Shown: positions 6,675-33,794, numbered from the stretch's first letter. The stretch is 34,435 nucleotides of DNA from a virus (IMGVR_UViG_3300024346_000262:1-34435), one strand, 5' to 3'. Made by a program: numbers and translations. Notes: generated by a model not told the origin, from the letters alone.

Positions 6675-6696
6675 AATAGGCTCCTTATATTAGAGT

Positions 6697-6731
6697 TTAA
6701 AAGCTCCCGATTATCTCTCGATAACCGAGAG
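6697..6731 (-). terminator. Rho-independent terminator between gp12-like and tail fibre genes
   Basis: On the minus strand a 12-base-pair stem CTCTCGGTTATC / GATAATCGGGAG (two G-U wobbles) closes a GAGA tetraloop of the GNRA type at 6731-6704. It is followed by CTTTTAAA. It sits 15 bases after the tail tube B stop and just before the tail fibre ribosome binding site. Confidence 0.75.
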
Positions 6732-6746
6732 CCGGAGAGGAGAACA

Positions 6747-9554
6747 TCAAACAATCGAAGAGGAGGTTTGTTTAAACTTTACTCTAAGCTGTAGGTTTGT
6801 AATGTTCATTGGTGTAAAGTAATCCGACAGGATATAGATATCTGTCTTGTCGCTAAACCCAAGAACCTTACTTACAAAGTCCCCTTGGTTTTCAACATTA
6901 CCAATTGACAAAATAGACTCATCAAAGGTATCAGATCTCGGGGCGGTAAACGATGATAGGAAGTTCCGCAGGGCGGGGTCTCTTTCCCGGTAGGCAGTCT
7001 GTATGTCCGCCAGCGGGCGGCCTCGACGCTGTACAAGGATATCATAGTTACCAGTTTCAAAGTGGCGGGTGGTGAGTGAGGCCAGGTTGAGGATGCCCTC
7101 TACTGGGTTGTTCGCATTATCCCGCATGAACTGTGTGCTCATTTGGATTGTGGTCAGGTACTTGCGCCCAAACCAATAGTCACCGTTAGGCAGGATGCCA
7201 CTGACGACCAGATCGGTATAGGTGGCGGTTGCCGTCGCGGACAGTACCGTATAAACAATACCGATATCATCGATGAGCATGTAGTTATCAAGATCATCTG
7301 TGATAACCATCGGTATACGAACCGTGGTTTGGTTCACCGTGGGATCGTGGACGCTGTTACAGGTATCACCTGTAGCAAACTTCGGGTCGTTTTCTGACAA
7401 CGCATTGTCACTAAAGAGCATGAGCTTCTGCTTCTTGTCCAGACGCGGCACATCGGCCGAGTCGAATCGCATCAACTGTCGAACAATCGAAAACGAGTCG
7501 CCAGAGCGCGTGACCATGTAGACGTGGTTATCCCAGGCCCGCATGGACTTTACTGCGGTATCATTATACTGGAACTTATAGAAAGCATTCTGTAGAATCT
7601 GTTCGCCACGGTAACGCGTCGTATACAGATATACATCACTTTCGTTGGTAGCGTCTGTAGCCAGCACCGTGTCCTGTGCGGCGGCTACCGCGGTCGTGCC
7701 GTAGGACCTAGGCAGGTACTTCGGGCAATGAGCGGAAAGCTCGGCTGCCGTGGAGAGTGTGCCGCCACGGCCAAGGTACAGATATAGACGCTCGGCATCA
7801 AAGAAGAAGATGTTATTACCGAGGGTCATTGGATCAATCAGCGGTGCCGTAGAATAGAACGTCATCGGCTGCAGCTCAGCGGTGAACGGCGTGATCTGGT
7901 TCTCAGATCCCATCAGCTCGTACTGCGTGTCTGCATTCGTGTTGACGAACATATACTCCTTAAACGGAACCATGCTGGTGATCGGGGTGTAGGTGTTTGT
8001 TGACGCTGCGATGTCAATAACATCACGGTCAATGATCAAACCCGGGTCCTCAATAAACCAGTCGGTAAAATCGCTTTCGCGACTCGAGAACACCACGTCA
8101 CCGGACGACAGCCACAGGCGGTTGCGGAAGAACGCAATCGTCGTAAGCTTGGCTTGGCGTCCATCCTTAAACGGGGTAGGCCCTGGGTTGGTTTGGTTAT
8201 CACCAGACGTTCGATGGGCCCATTCGATAAGATCCCAACTCCACGTAGATACACCATTGGACACACCAGTGAACTCAAGTTCAACGGGAAGTCGCTTAGC
8301 GTCCAGCACCGAGTATTCCTCGGGCGTACGGACCTTAAGCATGTGTGGCACGGGGTCGACATCTTTGGCGATGTAGTAACCGGGAGCTTGTCCCTGGTAC
8401 CCACCCTGGATGTAGTACACCTTACCATCAGCGGAGTTGTGTTCTAGCCCACCGGTTTCCAGGCCGTAAAGAGCCTGGAGCATTGGTTCGGCGTTATTGT
8501 TACCATCCGTTACATCTGCCGTGAGTGGCGGAAGGCGGAGGTCTGCAAACGTCGGGAGGGACTGACCAAGCTGTGGGGTGGTTGAATCGGGGTAGACCCA
8601 ATCCTTGACCTCAATACGCTTCGGTTTACGATCCTCGTCAAGCAAGGGCAAAGCAATCCAAGGCTGAATTAGTTCATTCCAGTTGGGGTTGTTGGTCGCA
8701 ATGACCGTCCAGTCGTTCGCATGACTAATGTGATGATTCGCCGAAACTGGCTCCTGGGCCTGCAGAATATAGTAATATTCAGTAGTACCGGTGCTGGGAT
8801 TTCCCGCGGCAGTTTCTGCATCTTGTACTCCGTTTGATTGTCCAGCAGCGTGCGTGTCATATGTTGCAGTACCGGGGATCACAAGTACCTCGGTTCCCGC
8901 GGCGTAGCTGCTATAGCTATCCCAGTAAACCGCAATACCCGCGGGGTCAACACGGAGCGCTGTGAGATACTTTTCTTTAGCGCCAATGGAATCTACGTTT
9001 GCCGTAGGCTGCCCATCAAGATCGAGCGTGACCCACTGCTCACCAACCCCATCATACACGGAGGTGTAGCCAGCGGTAACATCAGGGTTCAAGAACACGA
9101 GGTTTTCACCACGGGAAACCATCTTAAGCTCAGACTCGCCACCCCAGGTGAGATAGGCGCGCACATCGGCATTAATTTGATCTTGGTCTTCGGGCGTGTT
9201 ATCCTCAAAGTAATCACCAACCTGATTATAGTAATACACATAATACAGGTTCTTATTACTGTCGCTGGCACTTCGATCAACAATGATCAGGAAGCGCGCA
9301 TCATCAGATAACGCGTGCCAAAAGAATTCGTAGACACCGGTCGGGTCAAGCCCAAGGGTCTCGCCTGTGTACTCTGTACTGGACAGGCGGATACCCATAA
9401 GGTCTGTGCCGGGGCGCTTTTCAATGGAACGCTCAACACTACAAAGAGCGTTGATGAGTTCCTGGGATTCACTAGGTAGTCGCTTGGATGGGGCCTGTCG
9501 ACCCACACCACCGGACAATGTATATATCGGGATAGTTGTAGGCCGAGTGCTCAT
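6747..9554 (-). CDS. Tail tubular protein B (T7 gp12-like)
   Basis: This 935-residue protein begins with the typical gp12 opening: PIYTLSGGVGRQAPSKRLP, then INALCSVERSIEKRPGTDL. The family forms the nozzle of the short podovirus tail below the gp11 ring. Further family-like segments include FRNRLWLSSGDVVFSSRESDF in the middle, and FFFDAERLYLYLGRGG. The length is above T7 gp12 (794 residues), as in many marine relatives. The start ATG shares one base with the stop of the gp11 gene (TGATG), indicating translational coupling, and AAGGA lies nine bases upstream. A terminator follows the gene. Confidence 0.92.
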   Translation of the reverse strand: MSTRPTTIPIYTLSGGVGRQAPSKRLPSESQELINALCSVERSIEKRPGTDLMGIRLSSTEYTGETLGLDPTGVYEFFWHALSDDARFLIIVDRSASDSNKNLYYVYYYNQVGDYFEDNTPEDQDQINADVRAYLTWGGESELKMVSRGENLVFLNPDVTAGYTSVYDGVGEQWVTLDLDGQPTANVDSIGAKEKYLTALRVDPAGIAVYWDSYSSYAAGTEVLVIPGTATYDTHAAGQSNGVQDAETAAGNPSTGTTEYYYILQAQEPVSANHHISHANDWTVIATNNPNWNELIQPWIALPLLDEDRKPKRIEVKDWVYPDSTTPQLGQSLPTFADLRLPPLTADVTDGNNNAEPMLQALYGLETGGLEHNSADGKVYYIQGGYQGQAPGYYIAKDVDPVPHMLKVRTPEEYSVLDAKRLPVELEFTGVSNGVSTWSWDLIEWAHRTSGDNQTNPGPTPFKDGRQAKLTTIAFFRNRLWLSSGDVVFSSRESDFTDWFIEDPGLIIDRDVIDIAASTNTYTPITSMVPFKEYMFVNTNADTQYELMGSENQITPFTAELQPMTFYSTAPLIDPMTLGNNIFFFDAERLYLYLGRGGTLSTAAELSAHCPKYLPRSYGTTAVAAAQDTVLATDATNESDVYLYTTRYRGEQILQNAFYKFQYNDTAVKSMRAWDNHVYMVTRSGDSFSIVRQLMRFDSADVPRLDKKQKLMLFSDNALSENDPKFATGDTCNSVHDPTVNQTTVRIPMVITDDLDNYMLIDDIGIVYTVLSATATATYTDLVVSGILPNGDYWFGRKYLTTIQMSTQFMRDNANNPVEGILNLASLTTRHFETGNYDILVQRRGRPLADIQTAYRERDPALRNFLSSFTAPRSDTFDESILSIGNVENQGDFVSKVLGFSDKTDIYILSDYFTPMNITNLQLRVKFKQTSSSIV

Positions 9555-10219
9555 CAGCTAGTCCTTCCACGCCAGCGGCGAAAATCAGGAGACGTACTAC
9601 CGCCGTCACGGAAGACGGCACGCTTGGTCTGCGGAGAGGCCGCATCCCAAACGGTACGGCGCTTAGATTCAATATCACGGGATCGTCCCTTAAGATTGAA
9701 CAGCGCTTCATCTTGTGCGAGATACTGATCCATGGCGCCATCGCCTTGCGTCAGCATTTGATACCGCCTAGCAGCTGATGCCACGATGGCACGCTGTCCA
9801 GGTGTATCGATGTTTTCCCATTCTACAGTAACGATCAGCGTAGCCTTAAGCTCCGATGATGCATATGCTTCAAAGTTACTCGTCTGGTCCGTAACGTTCC
9901 AGAGCACAAAGCCAGTGCCTTCCCGCTTAACGGAAACACGAATGACCTCGTTATCTGCATTATAGAGCAGCGAGTTAAAGTCAAGGCTAATAATTTCCAT
10001 CGGTAATGCCACCTTGTGGGTAGCACCATCGACTGTAAGGGTCTTGTTGTATCGGTTGTTTGCAAGTCCACGGAACTGGTAATCATCCGTGTACTGATCC
10101 AAAAGATACTCAGCGATGGAGGTGTCCACGCCGGAGTTGTTTTCCAAGTCTGAGGCGATTGCTTCGCCTGCAGCCAGGAGACACTGGTTGACAGCATCAA
10201 GTCTAGTCATAGCGCCCAT
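9554..10219 (-). CDS. Tail tubular protein A (T7 gp11-like)
   Basis: The 221-residue product contains the gp11 hallmarks LDAVNQCLLAAGE near the N-terminus, then LLDQYTDDYQFRGLANNRYN and ALPMEIISLDF, and a C-terminal helical region (AAARRYQ-like, residues ~145-175). In the T7 family this protein forms the ring joining the portal to the nozzle. The start at 10219 is chosen because AAGGAG lies six bases upstream; an ATG three codons later would be too far away. The gene lies after the post-capsid terminator region, as gene 11 lies after T-phi in T7. Confidence 0.92.
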   Translation of the reverse strand: MGAMTRLDAVNQCLLAAGEAIASDLENNSGVDTSIAEYLLDQYTDDYQFRGLANNRYNKTLTVDGATHKVALPMEIISLDFNSLLYNADNEVIRVSVKREGTGFVLWNVTDQTSNFEAYASSELKATLIVTVEWENIDTPGQRAIVASAARRYQMLTQGDGAMDQYLAQDEALFNLKGRSRDIESKRRTVWDAASPQTKRAVFRDGGSTSPDFRRWRGRTS

Positions 10220-14908: not shown

Positions 14909-16339
14909 CTATTGGGGACGGGTAATTGCAAACTGCACGTTACCAGACAGGTCATCGTCAGACGCGCCGAGACCGGCGAGCGTGGACTGATACTCCTGCT
15001 GCTGCTGTGCAAAGGTTTGCTGCGCCTTGCGACGCTGCATAATAATAGTTTCTTCACGTTCCTTACTAAGCTTGTTACGTACCTCAGTATTAGCAACCTG
15101 CCGCTGAGTATACGACTTACGGCGATTGAACTCATCACGGATGCGCTCCATGTTATTGAGATCCTCGACCGCGAAGCGATTAAAGGTATCCTCACTGGTC
15201 TTGTCCAAGAAGCCCTCGAGACTGTAGTCGTCGAGATTAAAGGAGCGAAGGACCGCCTGGGTTCCAGTGATAGCGGATTTCTCATCCTGGTACGTGCTAC
15301 CCCAGTAGCCCTTATCCATGCCACTCATTTCAGCGACAGAGCGTGCCTCTGAAAACTTTTGGATGTCGTTGTACTCCTGTGTGAGGGTGCTGAACCGTCG
15401 GTAGTTATCCAGGCTCATCCTGTCGGAACCCTCGCCGATCATGGCTGAGCCATGCATCGCCCGGTCGCCGCCTTCACGGGCATTAAGCCAGTCCCCGGCG
15501 GCGGCCAGCCGACGATTGAAATCAGAGTCGGGATCGGCGATATCACGCCCCATGTTCCCAAGCCCCTTTTTGTCAATCGTCTTGTTCCAAAGGTCATCCT
15601 TGATAGCCGTGGAACGTGACTGGAACCGATCATTGACAAAGCTACGTACATCTTCCTTCGTACTGAAGGCATTGTACGCGGCATTCTCATCAAACTCCTC
15701 GCTAATGTCCCGAGACTTACCAGTCAGGGGATCGGTAAACGTAGTATCAAAGCTAGCCTGTCCGGGAGCCTTGAAGTTGCTAAGCGTGTTAGCATACCTG
15801 AGAGTGCTCTGCATCTGCCGGCGGGCAGCCTGTGAATAGGCGCCAACGGAAGATGTCGAGGAGGTCTGCATGGCCTGAGAGCGTAGGGAATCTGTTTGTG
15901 CCTGGCTTTGCTGGAAGGCAATATCCTGCGCATCCATCGCAGCCATGGCAGCGTCAAACTCCCCACGCGACTTTAGGGTTTCAGCTTCAAAGGCTTTGTA
16001 ATCGGTCTGGTCCTCCTGCATACGATTAAGGAGAAACCTGTTAGAGGCGTCCAGCGACATTCGAGCGCCAACGCCACCAAGGAATTCTTCATTGAAGCCC
16101 GCCCAGCCGTGCGTGCCAGAGTGTTTGGCAAACTGGTAGCGAGTGTTTCTTCGCATTGGTACATCGAAGGTGCCCGACCCTTGGGTTCCATTACTTAAGT
16201 CCGCTTGCACGGAATAGTCGCCGTTCATTTCACCTGAATACATCTCAGCAATACGGGCACTAGCGTTATCAACGTTGTTGCCAGACGTGGCCAAGTAATC
16301 AATGTACAGGTCGGAAAACATAGTATCCATTGTATCCAT
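14909..16339 (-). CDS. Uncharacterised virion-module protein, 476 residues, helical and glutamine-rich
   Basis: No family was recognised. The product starts MDTMDTMFSDLY behind AAGGAGGAGA. It contains Ala/Gln/Ser-rich helical stretches (FQQSQAQTDSLRSQAMQ; QSTLRYANTLSNF) and a highly charged C-terminal region (NRRKSYTQRQVANTEVRNK, then QRRKAQQTFAQQQQEYQ) likely to be coiled coil. The T7 internal core proteins (gp14-16) are absent from their usual place between gp12 and the fibre gene. This composition makes it one candidate for an ejected internal virion protein, but that is a guess. Its start overlaps the stop of the preceding small ORF (TAATG). Confidence 0.75.
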   Translation of the reverse strand: MDTMDTMFSDLYIDYLATSGNNVDNASARIAEMYSGEMNGDYSVQADLSNGTQGSGTFDVPMRRNTRYQFAKHSGTHGWAGFNEEFLGGVGARMSLDASNRFLLNRMQEDQTDYKAFEAETLKSRGEFDAAMAAMDAQDIAFQQSQAQTDSLRSQAMQTSSTSSVGAYSQAARRQMQSTLRYANTLSNFKAPGQASFDTTFTDPLTGKSRDISEEFDENAAYNAFSTKEDVRSFVNDRFQSRSTAIKDDLWNKTIDKKGLGNMGRDIADPDSDFNRRLAAAGDWLNAREGGDRAMHGSAMIGEGSDRMSLDNYRRFSTLTQEYNDIQKFSEARSVAEMSGMDKGYWGSTYQDEKSAITGTQAVLRSFNLDDYSLEGFLDKTSEDTFNRFAVEDLNNMERIRDEFNRRKSYTQRQVANTEVRNKLSKEREETIIMQRRKAQQTFAQQQQEYQSTLAGLGASDDDLSGNVQFAITRPQ

Positions 16340-16660: not shown

Positions 16661-18539
16661 CATTGTTCTCCGTAATGTCAACGATCTCGCAGGCGCCGCC
16701 AGTACAGGCAAACGTCTGCGAACCGCTTGTATTATCTTCTTGCTCGTACGTACTGAGGTTATCCCAATCAATAGTCGGGAACTCCGCAATACGACGATCA
16801 TATTCCTGCTTGTCAATCTCTTCGTAGGGAGCTTGCTTGTACACATGCTCACTGCGTGGGAGGAATGACAAGCCCTGAGCGATATCCCAGTACTGGTCAT
16901 ACAGATCAGCACCGAGTGCCATGAATTCTTCGGCCTTGTACTCAATCGTAACCGAGGGGTTATGATCGGTCCAGAACCGCTTGATCGTGGCCCAGTCTTC
17001 CATCATGTCCTTTGCCGTGCCTCGGGTCTTCGGTCCATCATAACCGATGACGAATTCGAAGACATAGGTGTTGGTAGGGTTGTTGACACAATCCTCACCA
17101 GGCACACCAGCATCGAACATGAGCTGGAACAGTGGATCCTTCTTGTCGATACGAACACGTCGAATATAGTGAGGTGCGTATCGGTGGTGGATACCAGATG
17201 CAGAGTCAACGAGACAGGACACGGTACCCGAAGGCTTAACCGTGGTGACTGCCTTGCTGCCCTCGATACCCAGCCTGTCGGCCCAGACATCGTTGGTCTG
17301 CACGGCGACGAGACGGGCATCGCGAAGAGCCATCTTGTCAAGTGCGAGATCTCTGTTATCCTGAATGCCAGTCAGCGAGACACCAAGCAGTCGCTCCTCC
17401 TCAGAGTTACGCTGCCATTGTTCCCTAAGGTAAGGGAAGTGGGTGCACATAGACTGTACCGTACCGATGATCGTGGCGAGCTCAACACGACGGTTAAGCT
17501 CGGCAGCACTCATGCCCGGGCGAACCACGACCTCGGTGAGGTTGCAGAACTGCATGGGGCGGAGAGTAATCTCACCACAAGGATTAGTCCCGAAGTGGTG
17601 GTCGGCATCACGTTCGATCTCAGACGAGCACTTCTGGGCAGCTTCGCGATTGAAGATGCCGCGCTCGCCAGAGTACGATCGGTAGATACTGAGCCACTCC
17701 TCCATGAACACATCCATTTCGGGACGGTGAGTGTAAGCGGCGGAGTTGTTTGCCAGCGAGCGATAGGAGTGCTTCTCCCACCAGTTGCCGGACTTGGCTC
17801 GCGCCATTTCGTGATCATCGAGATCACTGAGTGAGATCATAGCCGAGCGGCGGACGCCACCGACGATGACCGAGTTGGCGATGACACATGCAATGTCATG
17901 CACCTCAATAGGGCGAAAGGTACGGCCGCGGGCGTTGTAGACTGCGTTGGTAATAAACCGCAGACAGTCTTCCAACGGACCCGGACCGCTTGCACGCCCT
18001 CCGAAGGTCTTAAGACGGGCACCGGCGGGGCGAACTCCGCTGATGTCCCACGTGGGATGAATACCCGAGACGAGTTGCTCAAGGAGTTCACGGACTGCTT
18101 CAGCCCATCCCTCCTTGGAGTCCTCAACCTTGATCACGACAGATTCGTCGCGGAAGATATTCTCGGGAATGGTACCCCACTTGTCGATCACACGGCGCTC
18201 GACGCTGTAGCCAACACCAGTACCATTCATCAGAATGTACAGGAGCTCGGCCATAGCGGTCGGACCATCGAGATCGATATATGAACAATTATAAACAGAT
18301 GTATTGTCTCGGTCAGCTGCAGGTCCTGCGGTCATGAGAGCACGCATGCTCGGCATCACCTCAAGATTATATACGGCTTCCCTAACTTCAGGTCGATCGC
18401 TGAGGGCTGGGGCTTTGGTAAGCATCCAGTCCCACCAACGGTCAACGGTTTCGCCCCAGTTCTCGCGGCGACCGAGGTCATCGCGCCAACGGGCATACTT
18501 AGATTGGTGGATGAAGGTCTGAAACGGGGTCATATCCAT
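16653..18539 (-). CDS. nrdJ: Class II (adenosylcobalamin-dependent) ribonucleotide reductase
   Basis: The 628-residue product matches monomeric class II ribonucleoside-triphosphate reductase. With GTG 18542 counted as codon 1, Cys86 (NCSY) is the first redox cysteine. N320-P-C322-G-E324 holds the thiyl-radical Cys with its Asn and Glu partners, and Cys333 is the redox mate. The spacing from 322 to 333 equals that of Cys408 and Cys419 in the Lactobacillus leichmannii enzyme. PSGTVS lies near 437. The C-terminal pair Cys613/Cys618 (CTGGAC) has the spacing of the regenerating cysteines. I prefer ATG 18539, which shares one base with the dUTPase stop (TGATG). The enzyme makes deoxynucleotides for phage replication and needs host B12. 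The family assignment is firm. Confidence 0.95.
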   Translation of the reverse strand: MDMTPFQTFIHQSKYARWRDDLGRRENWGETVDRWWDWMLTKAPALSDRPEVREAVYNLEVMPSMRALMTAGPAADRDNTSVYNCSYIDLDGPTAMAELLYILMNGTGVGYSVERRVIDKWGTIPENIFRDESVVIKVEDSKEGWAEAVRELLEQLVSGIHPTWDISGVRPAGARLKTFGGRASGPGPLEDCLRFITNAVYNARGRTFRPIEVHDIACVIANSVIVGGVRRSAMISLSDLDDHEMARAKSGNWWEKHSYRSLANNSAAYTHRPEMDVFMEEWLSIYRSYSGERGIFNREAAQKCSSEIERDADHHFGTNPCGEITLRPMQFCNLTEVVVRPGMSAAELNRRVELATIIGTVQSMCTHFPYLREQWQRNSEEERLLGVSLTGIQDNRDLALDKMALRDARLVAVQTNDVWADRLGIEGSKAVTTVKPSGTVSCLVDSASGIHHRYAPHYIRRVRIDKKDPLFQLMFDAGVPGEDCVNNPTNTYVFEFVIGYDGPKTRGTAKDMMEDWATIKRFWTDHNPSVTIEYKAEEFMALGADLYDQYWDIAQGLSFLPRSEHVYKQAPYEEIDKQEYDRRIAEFPTIDWDNLSTYEQEDNTSGSQTFACTGGACEIVDITENNDG

Positions 18540-18961
18540 CACGCACCACCAGTCGAACCGAATGCACCAGCACCACGTGCGGTAACAGTCAGGCTTTTGA
18601 GCGAGTCAACCTTCTTGGCAGCCGCGTCACAGCGGACAACCACAAGCTGTACGATACGGTCACCAGGGCGGATAGTCTTCCAACCCTTGGCCGTGTCTCG
18701 CTTGGCCTTCACGAGGATCTCTCCCCGGTAGTCAGAGTCGATGACACCGACCGTGTTGGCTAGGGTCCAGCCCTGCTCACCCCAGCTCGAGCGGGGGATC
18801 AGAAGACCGACCCAGCCACTGGGGATTTCAACATGTACACCAGTATGGATGGTAGAAATATCACCCTGCTGGATAACTGCGTTAACGTAAAGATCAAAAC
18901 CCGCGGCGCCATCAGTAGCAACCTTGGGATCATAGTTTCCTGAAGTGTAGTATTTAATCAT
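18539..18961 (-). CDS. dut: dUTP pyrophosphatase (trimeric dUTPase)
   Basis: All five motifs of homotrimeric dUTPases are present: DGAAGFDLY, PRSSWGEQG, GVIDSDYRGEI, GDRIVQLVV and the C-terminal RGAGAFGSTG that closes over the active site. The enzyme converts dUTP to dUMP, keeping uracil out of DNA and supplying dUMP for ThyX. The start is ATG 18961 (MIKYYTSG) behind GAGGAGA. A TTG five codons upstream falls in the ribosome binding site and is rejected. The gene is coupled to the reductase gene and lies about 70 bases after the 24-base repeated motif. Confidence 0.95.
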   Translation of the reverse strand: MIKYYTSGNYDPKVATDGAAGFDLYVNAVIQQGDISTIHTGVHVEIPSGWVGLLIPRSSWGEQGWTLANTVGVIDSDYRGEILVKAKRDTAKGWKTIRPGDRIVQLVVVRCDAAAKKVDSLKSLTVTARGAGAFGSTGGA

Positions 18962-19091
18962 ATATGCTCTCCTCAAAGCGATTATAATAATCCTGCTCTA
19001 TAGAACGTCTATAGACTTTTTCTGTCTCCTCTAAAAGGCTCACTCGGTTGGCCCTTTCACGGGGGCCCGTATAGATGCACGGTATTGGCAT
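18954..19091 (-). CDS. Candidate very small gene upstream of dUTPase
   Basis: A 45-codon frame (MPIPCIYTGPRERANRVSLL to FEESIYD) runs from ATG 19091 and its TAA overlaps the dUTPase start by eight bases. It overlaps the 3' end of the exonuclease gene and includes the conserved 24-base motif, so the open frame may be a by-product of a regulatory element. A weak AAGGTGAG lies about ten bases before the ATG. No family was recognised. Confidence 0.3.
   Translation of the reverse strand: MPIPCIYTGPRERANRVSLLEETEKVYRRSIEQDYYNRFEESIYD
19028..19051 (-). promoter_or_regulatory. Repeated 24-base motif, candidate phage RNA polymerase promoter, copy 1
   Basis: On the minus strand the element reads CCAACCGAGTGAG followed by CCTTTTAGAGG, and matches the copy at 29476-29499 in 22 of 24 bases. 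The AT-rich CTTTTA followed by a purine run GAGGAGA recalls the melting region and start (TATA then GGGAGA) of T7-family promoters. It lies after the exonuclease stop and before the dUTPase and reductase genes. A TATAAT hexamer also occurs downstream at about 18983-18988, without a clear -35 box. Confidence 0.5.
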
Positions 19092-19827
19092 TAAAATCGT
19101 ACTCACCTTGACGTAGAATGCGGGCACATCGGGCCATTGCCAGACAGTATTCAAGGTCATAACCACGCTTATCGTATTCTGCGAGAACACACGCGTCCCA
19201 ATTGGCTCTACGATTGGCCCTGAGGAGCTTCAACGCAGACTTAGGACCAAAGCGATACAAACCCTTATATCCATCCGTAACGTCACCAGTAAGCCATTGG
19301 GTGTAGAACATCTCGTCCGCACGCCACTCTGGCTGGAAGATCAGCTCGGCATCATGGGTAACCTTACTCTGCCTGCCCTTCTTATCACGGGGGCCTAAGT
19401 GTGAGTATACAGGGCGGTAATGCCACCCAGGCACCGACAGGAGGTCTTTATCCAGGGTAACGGCAATAGCCCTACCCGAGGATGCAGCGATTCCCATTAG
19501 ATCATCAGCTTCGAGGTGGGGTACAAACTTCTTGTATTGGGTGTCTTCACCCATCAACTCCTTGGCGTACGCAAGACGCTCAGCCAAATCCCCGTCGATA
19601 GCCACACCGTCCCGTGATGCTTTATACTCGGTATAGGCGGCACGGCGATAATTCTTATCCCGGCTATCCGAAAGCGCCACGTAGGCTTTGGTACACCCAG
19701 GAGGTGTCCAGCTTTTGATAGTAACCGCCAGCATCATGGGCATTTCATCAATGTTCTCAGTAATATAAGCGGTCCTGTGGGCAACCATGTCACCATCAAG
19801 GATCGCTGTTGTTGGCATCGTCATCAT
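19057..19827 (-). CDS. 5'-3' exonuclease (T7 gp6-like, FEN/PIN family)
   Basis: The 256-residue product has the acidic metal-binding motifs of the 5' nuclease family in order: ILDGDMVAHR near residue 9, HLEADDLMG near 104, VTLDKDLLS near 123, and LTGDVTDGYKGL near 183 leading into the helix-hairpin-helix-like FGPKSALKLL. In T7 gp6 removes RNA primers and degrades host DNA. The start at 19827 is preferred because GGAG lies seven bases upstream; it overlaps the kinase gene by 32 bases. The gene sits in the replication block after the DNA polymerase as in other marine T7-like phages. Confidence 0.88.
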   Translation of the reverse strand: MMTMPTTAILDGDMVAHRTAYITENIDEMPMMLAVTIKSWTPPGCTKAYVALSDSRDKNYRRAAYTEYKASRDGVAIDGDLAERLAYAKELMGEDTQYKKFVPHLEADDLMGIAASSGRAIAVTLDKDLLSVPGWHYRPVYSHLGPRDKKGRQSKVTHDAELIFQPEWRADEMFYTQWLTGDVTDGYKGLYRFGPKSALKLLRANRRANWDACVLAEYDKRGYDLEYCLAMARCARILRQGEYDFNANTVHLYGPP

Positions 19828-20701
19828 CGTTGTGCTCCTCTGTATCAGGGTTAAGGCTCAGCCACCAGTCAGCCTTGAACATATCCCGTGGGGTAACGTC
19901 ACCCGACTCAAGATCGTCAATAGCCTCTTCGAACAGCTCCAGTAGCCTGTCCTTAATATCCTTATCCAGCGCCTTATCCTTCTTAATGTCCCGAAGCGCC
20001 TCACGGAAACCTTCGATAAGCTCAGATGCCTGGATGTCATAACGGAATGATGCACATTCAGGACACTTGCACGTATCGCTGAAGCGCTCGGGGTGCTCAC
20101 CAATCAGGTACGGCATGCGTGCCTCGAGCTTATCCTCGAGATCCGCCTGGGTACCATCATTGTACAAACCCCAACTGAACCGCTCAGTCAGATCCTCATC
20201 ACCCGCCTCGACACGCTGGGCCAGCTCCTCGGACTCATGGGCACGCCACTCAGCGTCATGGTCCTCAAGCCTACGCTTACCCGCATAGACAAACATGCTA
20301 ACAGCATCGAACTTCTTGACCGCCTCGAGCTCGTTAATGTAGCGGCAGTCATCCACGATCAGCACCGTCTCCTCCCAGTTGCCATTCTTACTGGCTCGCT
20401 TGGTCTCGCGCCGCTGCTCAGCCTTGGCGTACTCAAGCCACTTGTTAACCCAGTGGTCAGGGTTGTGCTCACGCATGCCAGCACCAAGCTTTTGACACTC
20501 CTTGCGGTAAACATCAGGCATATCTGCCTTAAACTTATTTGGATCATCATAGTCATGTTGCGCCGCCACCTCGTACTTGACAGGGGTAGAGAACGACATA
20601 CGCAAGGGCAGGAAGCCTGCCATCTTTGCCTCCATCTCAATGATGTCGGCCACTTCAGTTTTTCCAACGCGGGCCATGCCGCCTAGTACAATTACGTGCA
20701 T
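19796..20701 (-). CDS. Deoxynucleoside monophosphate kinase-like P-loop protein (T4 gp1-like)
   Basis: The 301-residue protein opens with a P-loop, GGMARVGKT (residues 7-15). A hydrophobic strand ending VLIVDDCRYINELEAV near 113-128 corresponds in layout to the VPDTR-type strand of T4 gp1. T4 gp1 phosphorylates hydroxymethyl-dCMP, dTMP and dGMP, which fits the hydroxymethylase encoded elsewhere in this window. The C-terminal part is unusual: C211-x-C213-x2-C216 may bind zinc, followed by charged helices and an acidic tail. The start has AAGGA upstream and overlaps the previous gene by ten bases. A related adenylate-kinase-like P-loop enzyme of other specificity is possible. Confidence 0.6.
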   Translation of the reverse strand: MHVIVLGGMARVGKTEVADIIEMEAKMAGFLPLRMSFSTPVKYEVAAQHDYDDPNKFKADMPDVYRKECQKLGAGMREHNPDHWVNKWLEYAKAEQRRETKRASKNGNWEETVLIVDDCRYINELEAVKKFDAVSMFVYAGKRRLEDHDAEWRAHESEELAQRVEAGDEDLTERFSWGLYNDGTQADLEDKLEARMPYLIGEHPERFSDTCKCPECASFRYDIQASELIEGFREALRDIKKDKALDKDIKDRLLELFEEAIDDLESGDVTPRDMFKADWWLSLNPDTEEHNDDDDANNSDP

Positions 20702-26945: not shown

Positions 26946-29450
26946 TCAACCGAATAGATATTCGGATTCGAGGACGTCTCCGATGTCGAAGCTTCCTCGA
27001 ACATTGTGCTTGTGGGCTGGGTGTTTTTCGGGGAGTTGTTCTCCCATGAGGACTTCGGCACGGTGAATGAGGTCTTGGAGTAGGTCTTTGGAGTGAATTT
27101 CATAGAAGGTCTCCTTGATAATGCGACGTAGCTGACGCACGAATGGTGCGGGTACGCCAAAGGAATCGTGTATGAAGCTGAGCTGTTGACATTTGATTGT
27201 CAATAGCGCTAGGATAACCAGAGTCATATGCGCCGCGTCCAATGAGTGCACGAAGTTGGGTGGCATAGCGGTCGCCGCCTTCTTAGCGTGGTGCTCGTTG
27301 GTCCAGACCTGAAAGTTCAGTTTGAACTGCTTGTTCCAGAGCCTGATGGCATTGGTATCGATAGCTGGCTTGCGGTACTTGTTGATCACCATGAACCCAG
27401 ACGGTGTGGTCCAGGACAAGGGCTTATCACCCAGCCAGCCCGCCAATAGTTGGACGAGTAGCTTGCCGTGGTTGCAGTGCTGCATCTGTATATCTTTCGA
27501 TGCACAGATGAGGGCGCGCATTGCATCCATGGCTTGTCGTTGTTCATCATGATCAGAGATCCAGTCAAGGTGACCCTCTTGGATAATGTAGTTGCCAACT
27601 GAGTGTGAGCTGATCCCGTATGGGTCACACATAACCGAGCGCTTACATACCTTACGAGGAATACAACCTTCCCAGTGCTCCAAGAACCGTTCATGCCAGT
27701 CATTAGGATCTTCTGCACACATAGACGTGCAACCATCAGCAACGAGCTGATAGACATCCTGGGGAACCTCAGACGTAGACAGGTTAACTTCAGGGCCAAC
27801 CTTCTCGTCGCGTGTCAACGCTGCCCAGTGCTGGACACCGTTACATGCACCATCCAACTGCACTGGGATCTGCGACTTGCCCTCATCAATAGCCATGATA
27901 AGATCGTAGATAGCAGCGAGCCGCTGGAACGATGCATTCTTATGCGTGGCATCATCTGCCCAGATGTCGGTTGTACCGTATGGGTCGGCTACGACCTCAC
28001 GCCACAACTGCATCCGAGCTTCAACCCACGCAGCACGGTCATCAAACGAGATCTTATCTTCACCCATCAGGTTCGCAAGGTTAACCCTAATCCAGTAGAT
28101 GTCTTCGGATTCGACATCCACAGGCTCGGCGAACATGATGAGAGACTTGTCAAGGTCACCGCCTTGAGGGTGGAGAAGATATGAATCACTGTAGTAACGA
28201 CCACGGAAGTCACAGAAGTATGCGTGCCAGAGCGTGAACTTGGCAATCTTCTTGGCCTCGGCGACACGGAGGATGTGCTGCTGTCGCAACGCTTCGCTCT
28301 TATGCCACTTAGCCCATCGCTGTTCACGTGCCTTCAGCCATACATGCTGTTCATTCTTATCCCCATCCTCGGGGTAGGTTGTTTCCATTTCATGGTCAGG
28401 TGCCTCATACAGTGGCAGGCTGCCGATGATGTGGTTGTTAACCCATAGGTTATCCATGACCTCGAGCACTGGTGTATTAATCTTCCACTCAGTAGCTTGG
28501 AGTGCGTTGATCACCTCACGTGTACTATCGGACATGCATGACGGTTCAACAGGATGGGCCGCATCAAAGATCTCCTCTGTTGCGGTTTGCCTGGTCTTCG
28601 CCGTCTTGCGCATGGCGCGTAGTGTCCAGTCCATTAGACCACCAGCTTCATCCTTGAGATGATCCACTGGCCGACACACCATGGGCAGGCGGTTGGGTAG
28701 CAGGGCGGAGATGTAATCCTGCACTGACGAGTACAGTGATTCAATCAGCCCTTCAGCAGGCATGACATACTTACGTACGGTAATACCGTTCTTAGACTTG
28801 GTAGACTTAATCTCACGAACAGACTTCGTGGATAGAATACCTGCTGACTCAGCGATCCTAAGTACGGCATGACCGAACCGATCCTTATCCTTGAGACTCA
28901 GCTCAGGCAATGCGTTAACCTTGTTGGTGAATGCACGCCGTCGCTTGGGTGTCCAGTTCTTAAAGAACCTAGACTGCTTCTTGTACCACCCGTAGGAATG
29001 TTCTTTGGCTTCAAGCCAACGACAGATATCCCAGCAGTGAGTACCCACATCACGAGCAACAGACTGTGCTGTGGGCAAGGCATAGATGTTCTTAGCGAAA
29101 TCCATATCCTTAAAGTGTGCGGACTTGAAGACCGACTCGAGCAGTGTCTTGACGAACACCGTTGCGATACGATCAGGTCCTAGGTTAACAATCTGATACA
29201 GCCACTGTGGCATACGTGCCTTGGATGAATCATCATCCCGCTTCTCAAGCTCTTCGTCGAGAGCAGCCTTGATCCACGTAGACAAGTAAGCTGCAGCGCT
29301 ATCGACCGTGTCGTTGAACGGGTCGAGGTGCTCAGGCTTAGTGTCATAGGTCTTCAGCATAACTTCGTGCTTCCACTGCTCTTCACGAGCTAGCTGAAGG
29401 TTCTGAAGCTGTTGCTTCTTGTTAGTTGAGTAGGTAGTCCATTGGTACAT
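26946..29450 (-). CDS. Single-subunit T7-type RNA polymerase
   Basis: The 834-residue protein contains the T7 RNA polymerase catalytic elements. DFRGRYY (Asp414, Arg416, Arg418) matches T7 DWRGRVY. QLDGACNGVQHW holds Asp533, the counterpart of T7 Asp537. KRSVMCDPYG holds Lys603 and Tyr611 (T7 Lys631 and Tyr639). FIHDSFG holds Asp762 (T7 Asp812). The C-terminus, FDIGDVLESEYLFG, parallels T7's ending in DILESDFAFA. The region before FVHSLD that corresponds to the promoter-specificity loop (VWTNEHHAKKAA) differs from T7, so promoters should differ too. AGGAG precedes the start. It transcribes the middle and late phage genes. Confidence 0.97.
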   Translation of the reverse strand: MYQWTTYSTNKKQQLQNLQLAREEQWKHEVMLKTYDTKPEHLDPFNDTVDSAAAYLSTWIKAALDEELEKRDDDSSKARMPQWLYQIVNLGPDRIATVFVKTLLESVFKSAHFKDMDFAKNIYALPTAQSVARDVGTHCWDICRWLEAKEHSYGWYKKQSRFFKNWTPKRRRAFTNKVNALPELSLKDKDRFGHAVLRIAESAGILSTKSVREIKSTKSKNGITVRKYVMPAEGLIESLYSSVQDYISALLPNRLPMVCRPVDHLKDEAGGLMDWTLRAMRKTAKTRQTATEEIFDAAHPVEPSCMSDSTREVINALQATEWKINTPVLEVMDNLWVNNHIIGSLPLYEAPDHEMETTYPEDGDKNEQHVWLKAREQRWAKWHKSEALRQQHILRVAEAKKIAKFTLWHAYFCDFRGRYYSDSYLLHPQGGDLDKSLIMFAEPVDVESEDIYWIRVNLANLMGEDKISFDDRAAWVEARMQLWREVVADPYGTTDIWADDATHKNASFQRLAAIYDLIMAIDEGKSQIPVQLDGACNGVQHWAALTRDEKVGPEVNLSTSEVPQDVYQLVADGCTSMCAEDPNDWHERFLEHWEGCIPRKVCKRSVMCDPYGISSHSVGNYIIQEGHLDWISDHDEQRQAMDAMRALICASKDIQMQHCNHGKLLVQLLAGWLGDKPLSWTTPSGFMVINKYRKPAIDTNAIRLWNKQFKLNFQVWTNEHHAKKAATAMPPNFVHSLDAAHMTLVILALLTIKCQQLSFIHDSFGVPAPFVRQLRRIIKETFYEIHSKDLLQDLIHRAEVLMGEQLPEKHPAHKHNVRGSFDIGDVLESEYLFG

Positions 29451-29475: not shown

Positions 29476-29499
29476 CCTCTAAAAGACTCACCCGGTTGG
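29476..29499 (-). promoter_or_regulatory. Repeated 24-base motif, candidate phage RNA polymerase promoter, copy 2
   Basis: On the minus strand the element reads CCAACCGGGTGAG followed by TCTTTTAGAGG, matching the copy at 19028-19051 in 22 of 24 bases. The identity continues weakly into the following A-x-A-x-AG. It overlaps the last codons and stop of the IF3-like gene and lies about 26 bases before the RNA polymerase start codon. A promoter or RNA-processing role is inferred from recurrence in two gene-boundary positions. Confidence 0.5.
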
Positions 29500-29736
29500 T
29501 ACCACTGTTACCTGTAGTTGTGGTCCAGACCACTTTGGCTGGCCTGACTTAAGACCCTGAAGAAACTCCTCCATGGTTTCCTCAGCTCTATCCTTGAACA
29601 TTCGTTGCCTACCTTTAAGAGCTAGGGTTACTTGGGTTGTTAATCCTTTCTCAGAGAAGCGGCGGACCTGCTCGCGTTTGCGTATCAGGTCTGCCTTGCC
29701 TATGTTAACGCTTAGTTTAATTGATTTTTTCTTCAA
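29488..29736 (-). CDS. Small protein resembling the C-terminal domain of translation initiation factor IF3
   Basis: The 82-residue product (MKKKSIKLSVNIGKADLIRK, then RRFSEKGLTTQVTLALKGR, then QLQVTVVPTG) follows the bacterial IF3 C-domain pattern. That is an opening K-x-I-x-L strand, a D-L-x-x-K helix, an F-x-E-K-G turn, a V-T-L-x-x-K/R-G-R strand, a helix, and a final strand ending in a proline. IF3's C-domain binds the 30S platform and monitors the start codon. The N-domain and linker are missing. The start is TTG 29736 with AAGGAG five bases upstream. It sits directly before the RNA polymerase gene. The assignment is by pattern and needs profile confirmation. Confidence 0.62.
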   Translation of the reverse strand: MKKKSIKLSVNIGKADLIRKREQVRRFSEKGLTTQVTLALKGRQRMFKDRAEETMEEFLQGLKSGQPKWSGPQLQVTVVPTG

Positions 29737-30340: not shown

Positions 30341-30934
30341 TTAGCCTCCAATACGGATGCGGGCAGAATCGAAGTCGCGATTCGCCTCGAGGTTAGGGAA
30401 GGGTGAGCCACCGTTGCTGAACTTGTTACCGAACGCGGTCGAGTACAGTGCCAGCACATTGCCGACCTTGCTCGCAACCTTCGGGCTTTCAGCCACCTGA
30501 CGGTCACCCTTGAATGCGCAGATACGATACGGGCCAGTACAACCAGCCTGTGGCGTGACATTGGGTTCAGCCTGTACAAGATTGTTAATCGGCTGGTACT
30601 TCTGGATGAGGCCATACTCAATAGCCTCAGCGGTTTTACCATCAAGACCATCAATCACGATCTCGATGTTTGCGTCACGTTGGAAGTTATCAGCGATTGC
30701 GTTGCTGTGAGGTTGCCACGGGCGGTCAAGCTTACCGTTACCAATGTACGTGATAGAACGCGGGTCGCTACGCTTAAGCTTGGGGTCGCGGTAGAGATAC
30801 ACGCCATAACCCTGGATGAGCGGGTTGTCAGCCTTGCTTGCTTCCAGGTCCTGGAGCAGGGTCATGGCTTCTTCGATCGCGAGGCGGGCATCGCTAAGGG
30901 CGGTCCAGATAGGGGCAGTGTCTTGCTTGTTCAT
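30341..30934 (-). CDS. GIY-YIG domain nuclease
   Basis: The 197-residue product carries a GIY-YIG core at residues ~42-118: GYGVYLYRDP (the GIY element), SITYIGNGKLDRP (the YIG element followed by the conserved Arg71), and AEAIEYGLIQKYQPINN, which supplies a candidate metal-binding Glu (103 or 106) and the usual terminal Asn. The last ~75 residues match nothing I know. The start is ATG 30934, overlapping the hydroxymethylase stop (ATGA) with GGAG eight bases upstream. T4 endonuclease II, which cuts cytosine-containing host DNA, has this fold. A similar role here is inferred only from the neighbouring hydroxymethylase gene. A homing-type endonuclease is the alternative. Confidence 0.75.
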   Translation of the reverse strand: MNKQDTAPIWTALSDARLAIEEAMTLLQDLEASKADNPLIQGYGVYLYRDPKLKRSDPRSITYIGNGKLDRPWQPHSNAIADNFQRDANIEIVIDGLDGKTAEAIEYGLIQKYQPINNLVQAEPNVTPQAGCTGPYRICAFKGDRQVAESPKVASKVGNVLALYSTAFGNKFSNGGSPFPNLEANRDFDSARIRIGG

Positions 30935-31569
30935 CGGTACTTCTCCAGAAGGTCTTGGTGGCGGGGGTAAACGTGAAGGGAACCAACGTTCCATACAATA
31001 GGATTGATACGCTCAAGGTTGAGCTCTTGGGCCAGACGGGTGGCGACGGTTGCTTGCCACGCGTAGTCGTTGTTGAAGCCGAACACGGCGTCGTTGCTAC
31101 GCATGTAGACATAGGTACACAGCTTCTTGTCACGGATGAAGTATTGCACGTGCGTGGTGCACATGTGGTCGTTCATGCCGTCGTCATTCTGCTGCGTGTG
31201 CATGTTGGGATTGGTGTAGTACATCACAGCGCGACGTGAGTGTGAATCGCGTCGCAGTTCGTTGACAACGCTGTTGAACTGGTTACCGTTGGCCGGCGAG
31301 TAGACACACCAGCCGTAGTTACTGTTGATGCGGCCATGCTTGCTTGACACATCACGCCAGATCTTAGGCGTATCGCCAGGGATGTCATCAACATACAGTG
31401 ACGTCGAATCATACCACTCGAGCTCGCGCTTGATGTAGTCTTCGTTAGGCTCACGCAGAATGTACGGCTTATCACAGATAAACTGTGCGCCGATGTACTC
31501 GCTCATGCCATTGACGATAGGTGCGTCAACAAGCTTGAAGAGCATAGTGGTAGTGGTATCCATAGTCAT
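30931..31569 (-). CDS. Deoxycytidylate hydroxymethylase-like protein (ThyA fold, T4 gp42-like)
   Basis: The protein has 212 residues and closely follows T4 gp42 over its length: RELEWYDSTSLYVDDIPG then TPKIW, INSNYGW, SRRAVMYYTNP, CTTHVQYFIRDKK, MRSNDAVFGFNNDYAWQ and WNVGSLHVYPRH. Cys137 is the catalytic Cys of the ThyA fold. Asp168 stands where thymidylate synthases have the Asn that selects dUMP; T4 dCMP hydroxymethylase has Asp179 there, and the Cys-to-Asp spacing (31) is the same in both. The C-terminus is about 30 residues shorter than in T4. The expected reaction is dCMP to 5-hydroxymethyl-dCMP with methylene-tetrahydrofolate. ATG 31569 overlaps the upstream stop (ATGA); ATG 31563 is possible. 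Confidence 0.85.
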   Translation of the reverse strand: MTMDTTTTMLFKLVDAPIVNGMSEYIGAQFICDKPYILREPNEDYIKRELEWYDSTSLYVDDIPGDTPKIWRDVSSKHGRINSNYGWCVYSPANGNQFNSVVNELRRDSHSRRAVMYYTNPNMHTQQNDDGMNDHMCTTHVQYFIRDKKLCTYVYMRSNDAVFGFNNDYAWQATVATRLAQELNLERINPIVWNVGSLHVYPRHQDLLEKYR

Positions 31570-32417
31570 ACACCTCCTTTATAGATCTTGCCGTTAGCCT
31601 TGCCATCGCGCCACGTGATATACTTACGGTATTCACACAACGCCTGCTCAGCGTCGAGCGGGTACATGAACCGCGCTTGCGGATCCTTATTCCAATCATC
31701 ACACATAGCGTGCAGCAGTTCGTTACGATCATACCCGAACATAGCCAGCACGGGCTTGGCACCAGGACCAAGCGGGAACGTGATGTCTGCTGGGGTATGT
31801 CCAAGCATTACCATATCCAGTACAACCTGAATCATTACAAACTCAGCACCGAATCCGAGTACCTCCTTCATGTCAGCGAGACAGCCTGAGTCTTGTAGGT
31901 CTTCGCCGGGCTTAATGTCCATGACAATGTCAAGCAGGGCATCAGATACTTCAGGCAGGTGGTTGATGATCATATCCTCACGGGATGTGTACCCAAGCTT
32001 GTGGAAGCTTGAAGACACCTGATATGGGCAGCCCCAGACCGGGTTACGGTTACTCTTAGGCTTGCCGTCCTTATCGTAGATCTTACCACCGCTGATCTCG
32101 TTGATCATGGCGATGTACTCATCGGGTACAAACGACTCGAGGTAACCACGCTCGAGGATGCTTTGCCGACACGCGAACCGTGCGTACAGCAGGTTAAGGA
32201 ACCGTTCGTCAGTGCCGCGGATCCAGTCTTTGATGAACACGCTCAGGCGATCCTGATCACGGAAGATGTTACAGAACTTCTTGGTCTGCAGTGTGACATC
32301 ATCAGTCCAAGGAGCGGGCTGACCTGCTTCCTTGCGCGTGTAAATATCCTGACGCTCACGGCAGAACCACATCAGTTCATCCCATGGCGCACGGTAATCA
32401 TTGAGGCAGTTCTGCAT
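31566..32417 (-). CDS. HMUDK_hel / aGPT-PPlase family protein, putative DNA base hypermodification enzyme
   Basis: The 283-residue product begins MQNCLNDYRAPW behind AAGGAG with seven bases of spacing. An ATG 13 codons earlier lies inside the previous gene and lacks such a site. Residues ~16-68 show what I recall as the signature of the 5-hmdU DNA kinase helical domain family (alpha-glutamyl/putrescinyl thymine pyrophosphorylases): FCRERQDIYTRKEAGQPAPW, then TDD, then KKFCNIFRDQDRLSVFIKDW. That family acts on hydroxymethylated pyrimidines in phage DNA. The rest is largely helical (FVPDEYIAMINE; NPVWGCPYQVSS). It overlaps the hydroxymethylase gene by four bases, which supports a shared pathway. 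Identification is from memory of motif shape, so moderate. Confidence 0.6.
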   Translation of the reverse strand: MQNCLNDYRAPWDELMWFCRERQDIYTRKEAGQPAPWTDDVTLQTKKFCNIFRDQDRLSVFIKDWIRGTDERFLNLLYARFACRQSILERGYLESFVPDEYIAMINEISGGKIYDKDGKPKSNRNPVWGCPYQVSSSFHKLGYTSREDMIINHLPEVSDALLDIVMDIKPGEDLQDSGCLADMKEVLGFGAEFVMIQVVLDMVMLGHTPADITFPLGPGAKPVLAMFGYDRNELLHAMCDDWNKDPQARFMYPLDAEQALCEYRKYITWRDGKANGKIYKGGV

Positions 32418-33114
32418 CAGCACTCTCCTTAAAGCGGTCGTCGCATTCTCCGGCATTGTTGAGCATGCTGTAACGAAGGATCAGCAGCTGGCTGATTGCA
32501 TGGTCAACGTGGTTGAGGCCAGACTCGGGGTCGATGTCTTCGCCAGCGTACCACTTGGTGAGGTGACGCAGCACTGAGCCGAACGAGCGGCTGTACACAG
32601 CAGGCTTGGCTGAGCGCCACGAATCCTGGTAGTATTTGTCAGCACCATAGGCGAACACATCAGCGACGCCGGTGAGTGTGGCAAAGGGTAGCAGCTCGAG
32701 GCGCGTCTTGCCACTGTCATCTTTAATTACGTTATCATCGTACATCGGTGAATCTCCAGTAAGGATTTCCCAAATGCGGACTTCAGGGCCAACCCATCCA
32801 TCGGGCTTGACTAGATCCCTGGATGTTCCACGACCCTTGTCGCCGAACACCTTAGCTTCGTTGGCATCCATCACCACGTCAAAGATCGGCAGCAGCGGGT
32901 AGCCATGGACAATCATCGTACCAATAGTGAAGACTAGCAGGTCAACGAGAGCATCAGCCTCGTCGGTCTCGGTGCATGCCTCATGGTACTCGTTCAGTTC
33001 TTCTTGTAGCATGCAGATACGTACATGCTTATCACGATCAGTGACTACGGGATGGAGAAGATCAAACTTCTCGTACATGGCTTTGATGCGTTCATAGATG
33101 TAGTTGTCAGGCAT
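32398..33114 (-). CDS. MazG-like all-alpha NTP pyrophosphohydrolase fused to a DUF5664 domain
   Basis: The 238-residue protein has two parts. Residues ~1-110 resemble all-alpha NTP pyrophosphohydrolases, with metal-binding LQEELNEYHEA and DEADALVDLLVF helices. Residues ~130-220 resemble DUF5664 (listed as a dATP/dGTP diphosphohydrolase domain): KTRLELLPFATL, YGADKYYQDSW, LRHLTKWYAGEDIDPESG, NHVDHAISQLL. Such enzymes hydrolyse dNTPs to dNMPs. Here it could trim dCTP, as T4 gp56 does, feeding the hydroxymethylase two genes downstream, but its substrate cannot be read from sequence. The start is coupled to the ThyX stop (TGATG). The next gene begins inside its 3' end. Confidence 0.75.
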   Translation of the reverse strand: MPDNYIYERIKAMYEKFDLLHPVVTDRDKHVRICMLQEELNEYHEACTETDEADALVDLLVFTIGTMIVHGYPLLPIFDVVMDANEAKVFGDKGRGTSRDLVKPDGWVGPEVRIWEILTGDSPMYDDNVIKDDSGKTRLELLPFATLTGVADVFAYGADKYYQDSWRSAKPAVYSRSFGSVLRHLTKWYAGEDIDPESGLNHVDHAISQLLILRYSMLNNAGECDDRFKESADAELPQ

Positions 33115-33794
33115 CAGTAGGTAATCTCCAGTAGTTCTCGGGTGGATATAGGGAATAGCCTCTCAAGCTGCTCTTGCACGAGGTTGGCATATGGCCAGCA
33201 CTCGGCTTGGGCATGGTGATCGCCACGCAACTGCACAAACCGCGTCCATGCCATGAGTGAGCCAGTCCAGATCCACTCAGTGATCATGGACTGTGGCATA
33301 CACATCCTAACCTGTTCAGGGCAAATACCCTGACTGATCATGGATTTGTAATCCTTGTAGTGCTCACGCATTTGATCGACGTACGCATCGAGTACATCGC
33401 CAGCGAGCAGGACTTCACCTTCGCTGACACTACCCTGCTTCATGTTCTCAGGTCGTTGACGCCATGAGATCGGCACGAAGAACGCGGGTGGGTCGTCGAC
33501 ATAGCGGCGTGACACCTCGTTCCACACGAACCCGACGACATGCTTCTGAAACTGCCGAGCGATGAAGATCGGCGCACGGAAGCGGAACTTAATCGAGGTA
33601 TGCGCGAAGGGTGACCAGTGCTTATGCTTAGCAAGATACCCGATCAGCTTAGCGTTCTGGTCATACGAGTAGTCAGTAGCAGCCTTGTAGAAGGACACGC
33701 GAGCTGCATCACAGACGTCGTTATCCGTGCCCATGTGATCGATCAGCGTCACTTCGTTAACGATCTCGTTGTCATATCCATTGGTTACAAGCAT
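33114..33794 (-). CDS. thyX: Flavin-dependent thymidylate synthase
   Basis: The 226-residue product has ThyX landmarks: HKHWSPFAH near residue 57, the signature region RQFQKHVVGFVWNEVSRRY (residues 80-98), and LRGDHHAQAE near the C-terminus, holding the Arg that binds dUMP. The signature departs from the classic RHR form (KHV here), as I recall from other phage ThyX proteins. The enzyme converts dUMP to dTMP using FAD and methylene-tetrahydrofolate, with dUMP supplied by the phage dUTPase. AAGGAG lies eight bases before the start. ThyX alongside a ThyA-fold hydroxymethylase implies separate roles for the two. Confidence 0.93.
   Translation of the reverse strand: MLVTNGYDNEIVNEVTLIDHMGTDNDVCDAARVSFYKAATDYSYDQNAKLIGYLAKHKHWSPFAHTSIKFRFRAPIFIARQFQKHVVGFVWNEVSRRYVDDPPAFFVPISWRQRPENMKQGSVSEGEVLLAGDVLDAYVDQMREHYKDYKSMISQGICPEQVRMCMPQSMITEWIWTGSLMAWTRFVQLRGDHHAQAECWPYANLVQEQLERLFPISTRELLEITY

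Follow-up and report, generated by a model that had tools for sequence, protein, structure and literature searches.

Proteins of the HMUDK_hel family have hitherto been linked to thymine hypermodification. What is such a gene doing in a phage operon beside a hydroxymethylase of the phage T4 type? T4 replaces cytosine by hydroxymethylcytosine (hmC), using a system of gp42 hydroxymethylase, gp56 dCTPase and gp1 kinase. The operon in question lies in the window, by which we mean the whole viral contig analysed (34,435 bases, a genome fragment with its genes on the minus strand). Gene content marks the phage as a T7-like podovirus: besides a single-subunit RNA polymerase, which had no close relatives in single-sequence scans, the contig encodes a primase-helicase and a head-tail adaptor of T7 type, a family A DNA polymerase and a protein of a major head protein family. 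A class II ribonucleotide reductase is also encoded. The main features are collected in Table 1.

Table 1. Features of the window that bear on nucleotide modification and phage type
Feature	Coordinates	Strand	Evidence
ThyX, flavin-dependent thymidylate synthase	33114..33794	-	PF02511 E 1.6e-42
MazG-like (PF01503) + DUF5664/dGTP_diPhyd_N (PF18909) pyrophosphohydrolase	32398..33114	-	Pfam, PHROG 801
HMUDK_hel (PF18723), 283 aa from preferred ATG	31566..32417	-	Pfam E 1.4e-21
dCMP hydroxymethylase, T4 gp42 type, 212 aa	30931..31569	-	phmmer vs T4 dCMP hydroxymethylase E 2.5e-64
Nuclease-like ORF, GIY-YIG-like motifs, 197 aa, family unconfirmed	30341..30934	-	position kept, 28% identity in L007
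Single-subunit RNA polymerase, T7-like	26946..29450	-	tblastn: ~26% identity to T7-like RNA polymerases over ~90% length
Deoxynucleoside monophosphate kinase	19796..20701	-	PHROG 139 E 3.9e-16
dUTPase	18539..18976	-	PHROG 135 E 2.7e-43

The operon (30341-33794) runs from ThyX through MazG+DUF5664, HMUDK_hel and the dCMP hydroxymethylase to the nuclease-like ORF; next in the early region come small genes of unknown function, a protein with an IF3 C-domain and the RNA polymerase. The initial annotation had described overlapping minus-strand genes here, and the ORFs are present where it placed them, joined by short stop/start overlaps throughout the block (ATGA in two cases). Good ribosome-binding sites precede the HMUDK_hel and hydroxymethylase genes. 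The G+C content of the operon is that of the remaining contig, and base composition shows no anomaly that would point to HMUDK_hel as a recent arrival. Elsewhere in the contig, a 476-aa protein (14909-16339, minus strand) was considered as a glycosyltransferase and rejected, having no family match and no relative in 50,697 phage records; from its sequence and position it is probably structural.

The hydroxymethylase had been called a close relative of T4 gp42, and phmmer bears this out: thymidylate synthases were matched at only E 7.6e-11, against 2.5e-64 for gp42. The pairing of Cys137 and Asp168 with T4 Cys148 (the nucleophile) and Asp179 (cytosine-selecting), proposed from spacing, held in the alignment. 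In the T4 enzyme Asp179 is the dCMP determinant, and activity requires Ser94, Tyr96 and Asp145 (PMC6400193). Retained T4 active-site residues (as given in PMC6400193) are E49, S83, Y85, R112, R113, D134, D160, Y201 and R203, the counterparts of Glu60, Ser94, Tyr96, Arg123/124, Asp145, Asp171, Tyr218 and Arg220; residues 1-22, the expected place of Lys28, do not align with the T4 enzyme. Equivalents of Ser94, Tyr96, Asp145 and Asp179 are also retained in the hydroxymethylases of contigs L007, L066 and L134. The best relatives in annotated phages belong to Acinetobacter T4-like phages (57% identity over 88%). Together the T4-type active site, the cytosine-selecting Asp and the T4-like nearest relatives strongly indicate, at the level of sequence, dCMP as substrate and hm-dCMP as product.

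Several other genes would support such an enzyme. ThyX, named earlier as the source of dTMP, is real (Table 1), and both domains of the predicted pyrophosphohydrolase were recovered, in a protein 52% identical to its sister-phage counterpart. We regard this protein as a candidate dCTPase by analogy with T4, the Pfam naming of the enzyme pointing to purines. The kinase previously described as gp1-like and downstream does match its PHROG family, scores under the Pfam DNMK cut-off and lies 10 kb downstream; it is conserved in L172 and L173, and is a candidate for converting hm-dCMP to hm-dCDP.

The last gene of the operon fared less well. It had been annotated as a GIY-YIG nuclease parallel to T4 endonuclease II, an enzyme of the T4 set that destroys host DNA. 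No match was found in Pfam, NCBIfam or PHROG, comparison with true GIY-YIG proteins by hhalign gave a probability of 1.2%, the AlphaFold model is poor (mean pLDDT 41), a genome scan likewise gave no confirmation, and endonuclease II was not among the PDB sequences that the ORF matched. What speaks for a GIY-YIG protein is a set of YxVY...YIG motifs recognised by eye in the window and L007, with sub-threshold matches to homing-type GIY-YIG proteins; the endonuclease II parallel finds no support beyond that motif, and destruction of host DNA in the manner of T4 is unsupported. The most likely start is at 30934, sharing ATGA with the hydroxymethylase stop, and the 20 extra N-terminal residues of a longer ORF merely repeat the overlapping hydroxymethylase frame. 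Since true GIY-YIG genes, some of them homing-type, adjoin HMUDK_hel or hydroxymethylase genes in L086, L126 and L150, descent from a homing gene and a function like that of T4 endonuclease II are equally likely. In L086 (phage AIIMS-Plu-RaNi) the GIY-YIG gene (6861-7430) sits between HMUDK_hel and the hydroxymethylase; PaMx11 has none at the equivalent site, and the L086 gene looks like a homing insertion.

The HMUDK_hel assignment, for which a profile search had been proposed, is secured by the Pfam match (77.5 bits, cut-off 25), which covers 255 of the 296 residues of ORF 31566-32456 and profile positions 5-272 of 281. The start at 32417, also that of the initial annotation, is the better one, with AAGGAG directly 5' of that ATG. 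Single-sequence scans gave no close relatives of this protein, and a search of PDB sequences gave no convincing ones. Its AlphaFold model (pLDDT 84.4) retrieved nothing significant with Foldseek alone; VIA-align, by which alone the following were ranked, placed PaMx11 gp46/PUGT (8z2n) at the top (207 residues, Z 10.1), followed by 8-oxoguanine glycosylases (Z ~6.5-7.7) and a queuine salvage enzyme. Gp46 is the 5-phosphomethyl-dU glycinyltransferase, acting on modified thymine in DNA. Middling Z values are common among helical models, so the gp46 match is only a lead; at 5% sequence identity and with gp46 in another Pfam family, a common fold does not mean a common reaction. The model predicts an HhH-glycosylase-like fold that would act on or read modified DNA bases, and base flipping appears likely because the top structural match is an enzyme of modified thymine in DNA. 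At the 31 columns conserved among uracil-type homologs, the window protein keeps 23 and changes 8, the changes being partly clustered around GPGAxRG; the core residues R35, N63, D69, GPG and C274 are retained. Pfam holds the kinase (PF18748, PF18747) and amino-acid:DNA transferase (ADDT; PF18724) as families separate from HMUDK_hel.

A sister contig (L007/L173), its RNA polymerase 47% identical to that of the window, has the same order of ThyX, MazG+DUF5664, cytosine-type hydroxymethylase and nuclease-like ORF. There the hydroxymethylase gene comes straight after MazG, and the 20.9 kb of the contig contain no HMUDK_hel. Because the remaining block is retained there without HMUDK_hel, the hydroxymethylase block appears to be the stable core of the lineage and HMUDK_hel an accessory. 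Contigs L172 and L174 are uninformative about the module, since they end before the hydroxymethylase block and no wrapped-round copy was found at their far ends.

HMUDK_hel is mostly found in hmU systems (PMC9599517), and our viral scans agree. Among ~130 HMUDK_hel loci, some redundant and with partners counted inside the fetched flanks, the adjacent hydroxymethylase was uracil-type in 96, absent in 30 and cytosine-type in four distinct cases: the window, L066, L134 and L227 (L234, a copy of the window, was left out). The selecting position is Asn in all typed uracil-type enzymes beside HMUDK_hel. PaMx11 and its relatives have HMUDK_hel between a small P-loop kinase and a uracil-type hydroxymethylase. 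Among the cytosine-type loci, L134 has a canonical HMUDK_hel domain (E 2.8e-51) together with its own thymidylate synthase, DUF1599, dCMP hydroxymethylase, dCMP deaminase, a HAD protein and a C5-methyltransferase-like protein; L066 and L227 have in common a hydroxymethylase, an inositol-phosphate synthase, a small HAD-like protein and a divergent HMUDK_hel. The cytosine-type cases fall on at least three branches. No PF18748 or PF18724 was found in them where searched. This lack is weak evidence, since the contigs are partial and many uracil-type contigs are without these partners too: of 50 records 17 had PF18748, and of 41 records 11 had ADDT.

The window HMUDK_hel groups with the L242/L092/L093/L102 lineage in two trees (98/91 and 99/98), and has changes in common with it at several consensus columns; the placement is unsure because the branch is long and the protein departs from the uracil-type consensus. 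In the nearest relatives (L092, L093, L102, L103, L242, L253) the order is TerS-HMUDK_hel-TerL (L092 6156-14168, L093 6240-11959, L103 6198-9735, L242/L253 ~6129-9700). The 187-kb L242 contig is a further cytosine-type case: the hydroxymethylase that it encodes, ~100 kb from HMUDK_hel, has T4 gp42 as its closest match and Asp as the selecting residue. L281 (1480-2256, minus strand) encodes a divergent dCMP-hydroxymethylase-like protein (T4 gp42 E 1.6e-17), also with the selecting Asp; it comes from a phage contig of 187 kb in which HMUDK_hel is flanked by terminase genes. The terminase large-subunit ORFs of L092 and L093 contain apparent inteins. Genes resembling myo-inositol-phosphate synthase (PF01658) recur near HMUDK_hel (L066 3767-6750, L227 487-4079, L126 171-2868, L166 6962-12975), twice alongside dCMP hydroxymethylase, which hints at an inositol-derived base modification.

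The reading that we favour, at a probability of about 0.6, is that the phage incorporates 5-hmC in its DNA and that HMUDK_hel is an accessory acting on that base in DNA. ThyX would make dTMP; the MazG/DUF5664 enzyme would deplete one or more competing dNTPs (dCTP if T4 is a guide); the hydroxymethylase would convert dCMP to hm-dCMP, which the dNMP kinase and a host kinase would raise to hm-dCTP; and the polymerase would insert 5-hydroxymethylcytosine. HMUDK_hel might then flip or bind 5-hmC in DNA, and either activate its hydroxyl for further modification or protect or read the base. The initial annotation had proposed modified cytosine with further decoration. Its cytosine hydroxymethylation is upheld by the T4-type active site, ThyX, MazG and the dNMP kinase; decoration by HMUDK_hel is a plausible hypothesis, given the gene's position, the predicted fold of a DNA-base enzyme and the recurrence beside cytosine-type hydroxymethylases. 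The nearest relatives of the window protein, lying between terminase genes and not beside a hydroxymethylase, count against our reading, as do the failure to recognise a kinase, ADDT or glycosyltransferase in the contig, the 8 altered consensus columns with the unsure placement on a long branch, and the sister phage that has the hydroxymethylase and no HMUDK_hel.

It is possible, if on the unlikely side, that the phage converts cytosine to hmC and nothing more, in the manner of T4, leaving HMUDK_hel as a non-catalytic reader or protector or as a leftover gene. The contig yielded no hypermodification partner genes, the sister phage is without HMUDK_hel, and 8 of 31 consensus positions are altered; against this reading, the gene is intact, with its core residues kept, overlaps its neighbours and is served by a good ribosome-binding site. 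The terminase neighbourhood of the relatives is what raises the thought of modification-dependent packaging, in which terminase would pack phage DNA only, HMUDK_hel of this branch recognising it by its modified cytosine, and the cytosine-type hydroxymethylase of the L242 contig fits with it. We hold this to be very unlikely. In the window the gene adjoins nucleotide-metabolism genes and not terminase; the sister phage is again without it, and gene neighbourhood alone does not demonstrate function. Scarcely credible is a thymine-modification operon whose ThyA-fold enzyme works mainly on dUMP to give thymidylate or hmU. The preponderance of hmU loci in the family (PMC9599517; 96 uracil-type loci here) would favour it, against Asp168 in place of Asn, a match to T4 dCMP hydroxymethylase that beats thymidylate synthase by 50 orders of magnitude, a ThyX already encoded, and a contig in which PF18748 and PF18724 were not found.

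To return to 5-hmC with an accessory HMUDK_hel, the system resembles that of T4 in the active-site residues of its hydroxymethylase, its dNMP kinase and its candidate dNTP pyrophosphatase. It differs in that the phage is T7-like with ThyX, the pyrophosphatase is MazG+DUF5664 with no gp56-like match found, and neither a glucosyltransferase was recognised nor an endonuclease II confirmed in the window. As in the 5-hmdU systems of M6, PaMx11 and ViI, the PF18723 gene directly adjoins a ThyA-family hydroxymethylase; unlike theirs, this enzyme is cytosine-type (Asp, not Asn), and kinase (PF18748, PF18747), ADDT (PF18724) and glycosyltransferase were all unrecognised in the incomplete contig. Environmental phages have been described with a dCMP-hydroxymethylase homologue and a 5-hmC carbamoyltransferase (PMC8670742); the window likewise pairs a hydroxymethylase with a second, putatively hmC-acting protein, which here is HMUDK_hel.

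What sets the operon apart is that an established type of hydroxymethylase occurs in T7-like phages and is combined there with a protein family familiar from the hypermodification of thymine. As the closest annotated enzymes are T4-like, the T7-like operon widens the possible range of whole-genome hmC, and the lineage is small enough for study as one unit. That HMUDK_hel adjoins a T4-type hmC gene set suggests that the family serves modified cytosine too, and its place beside cytosine-type enzymes points to yet undescribed cytosine modifications. With the recurrence on at least three branches, action of HMUDK_hel on hydroxymethyl pyrimidines generally becomes directly testable. A bolder proposal, and in our estimate a distinctly unlikely one, is that the family includes hmC-specialised branches functioning without the known hmU kinase and ADDT, and that in the branch of the window and the TerS-HMUDK_hel-TerL loci hmC is recognised or altered, distinguishing phage from host DNA, possibly at packaging.

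Upstream of the RNA polymerase gene, a small gene (29488-29736, minus strand) encodes a protein that matches only the IF3 C-terminal domain (PF00707, E 7e-11). It is conserved in the lineage (L007 4735-5004, E 5.8e-11; L172 715-1011; L174 1805-2074), and a phage-borne IF3 C-domain could change initiation of host translation.
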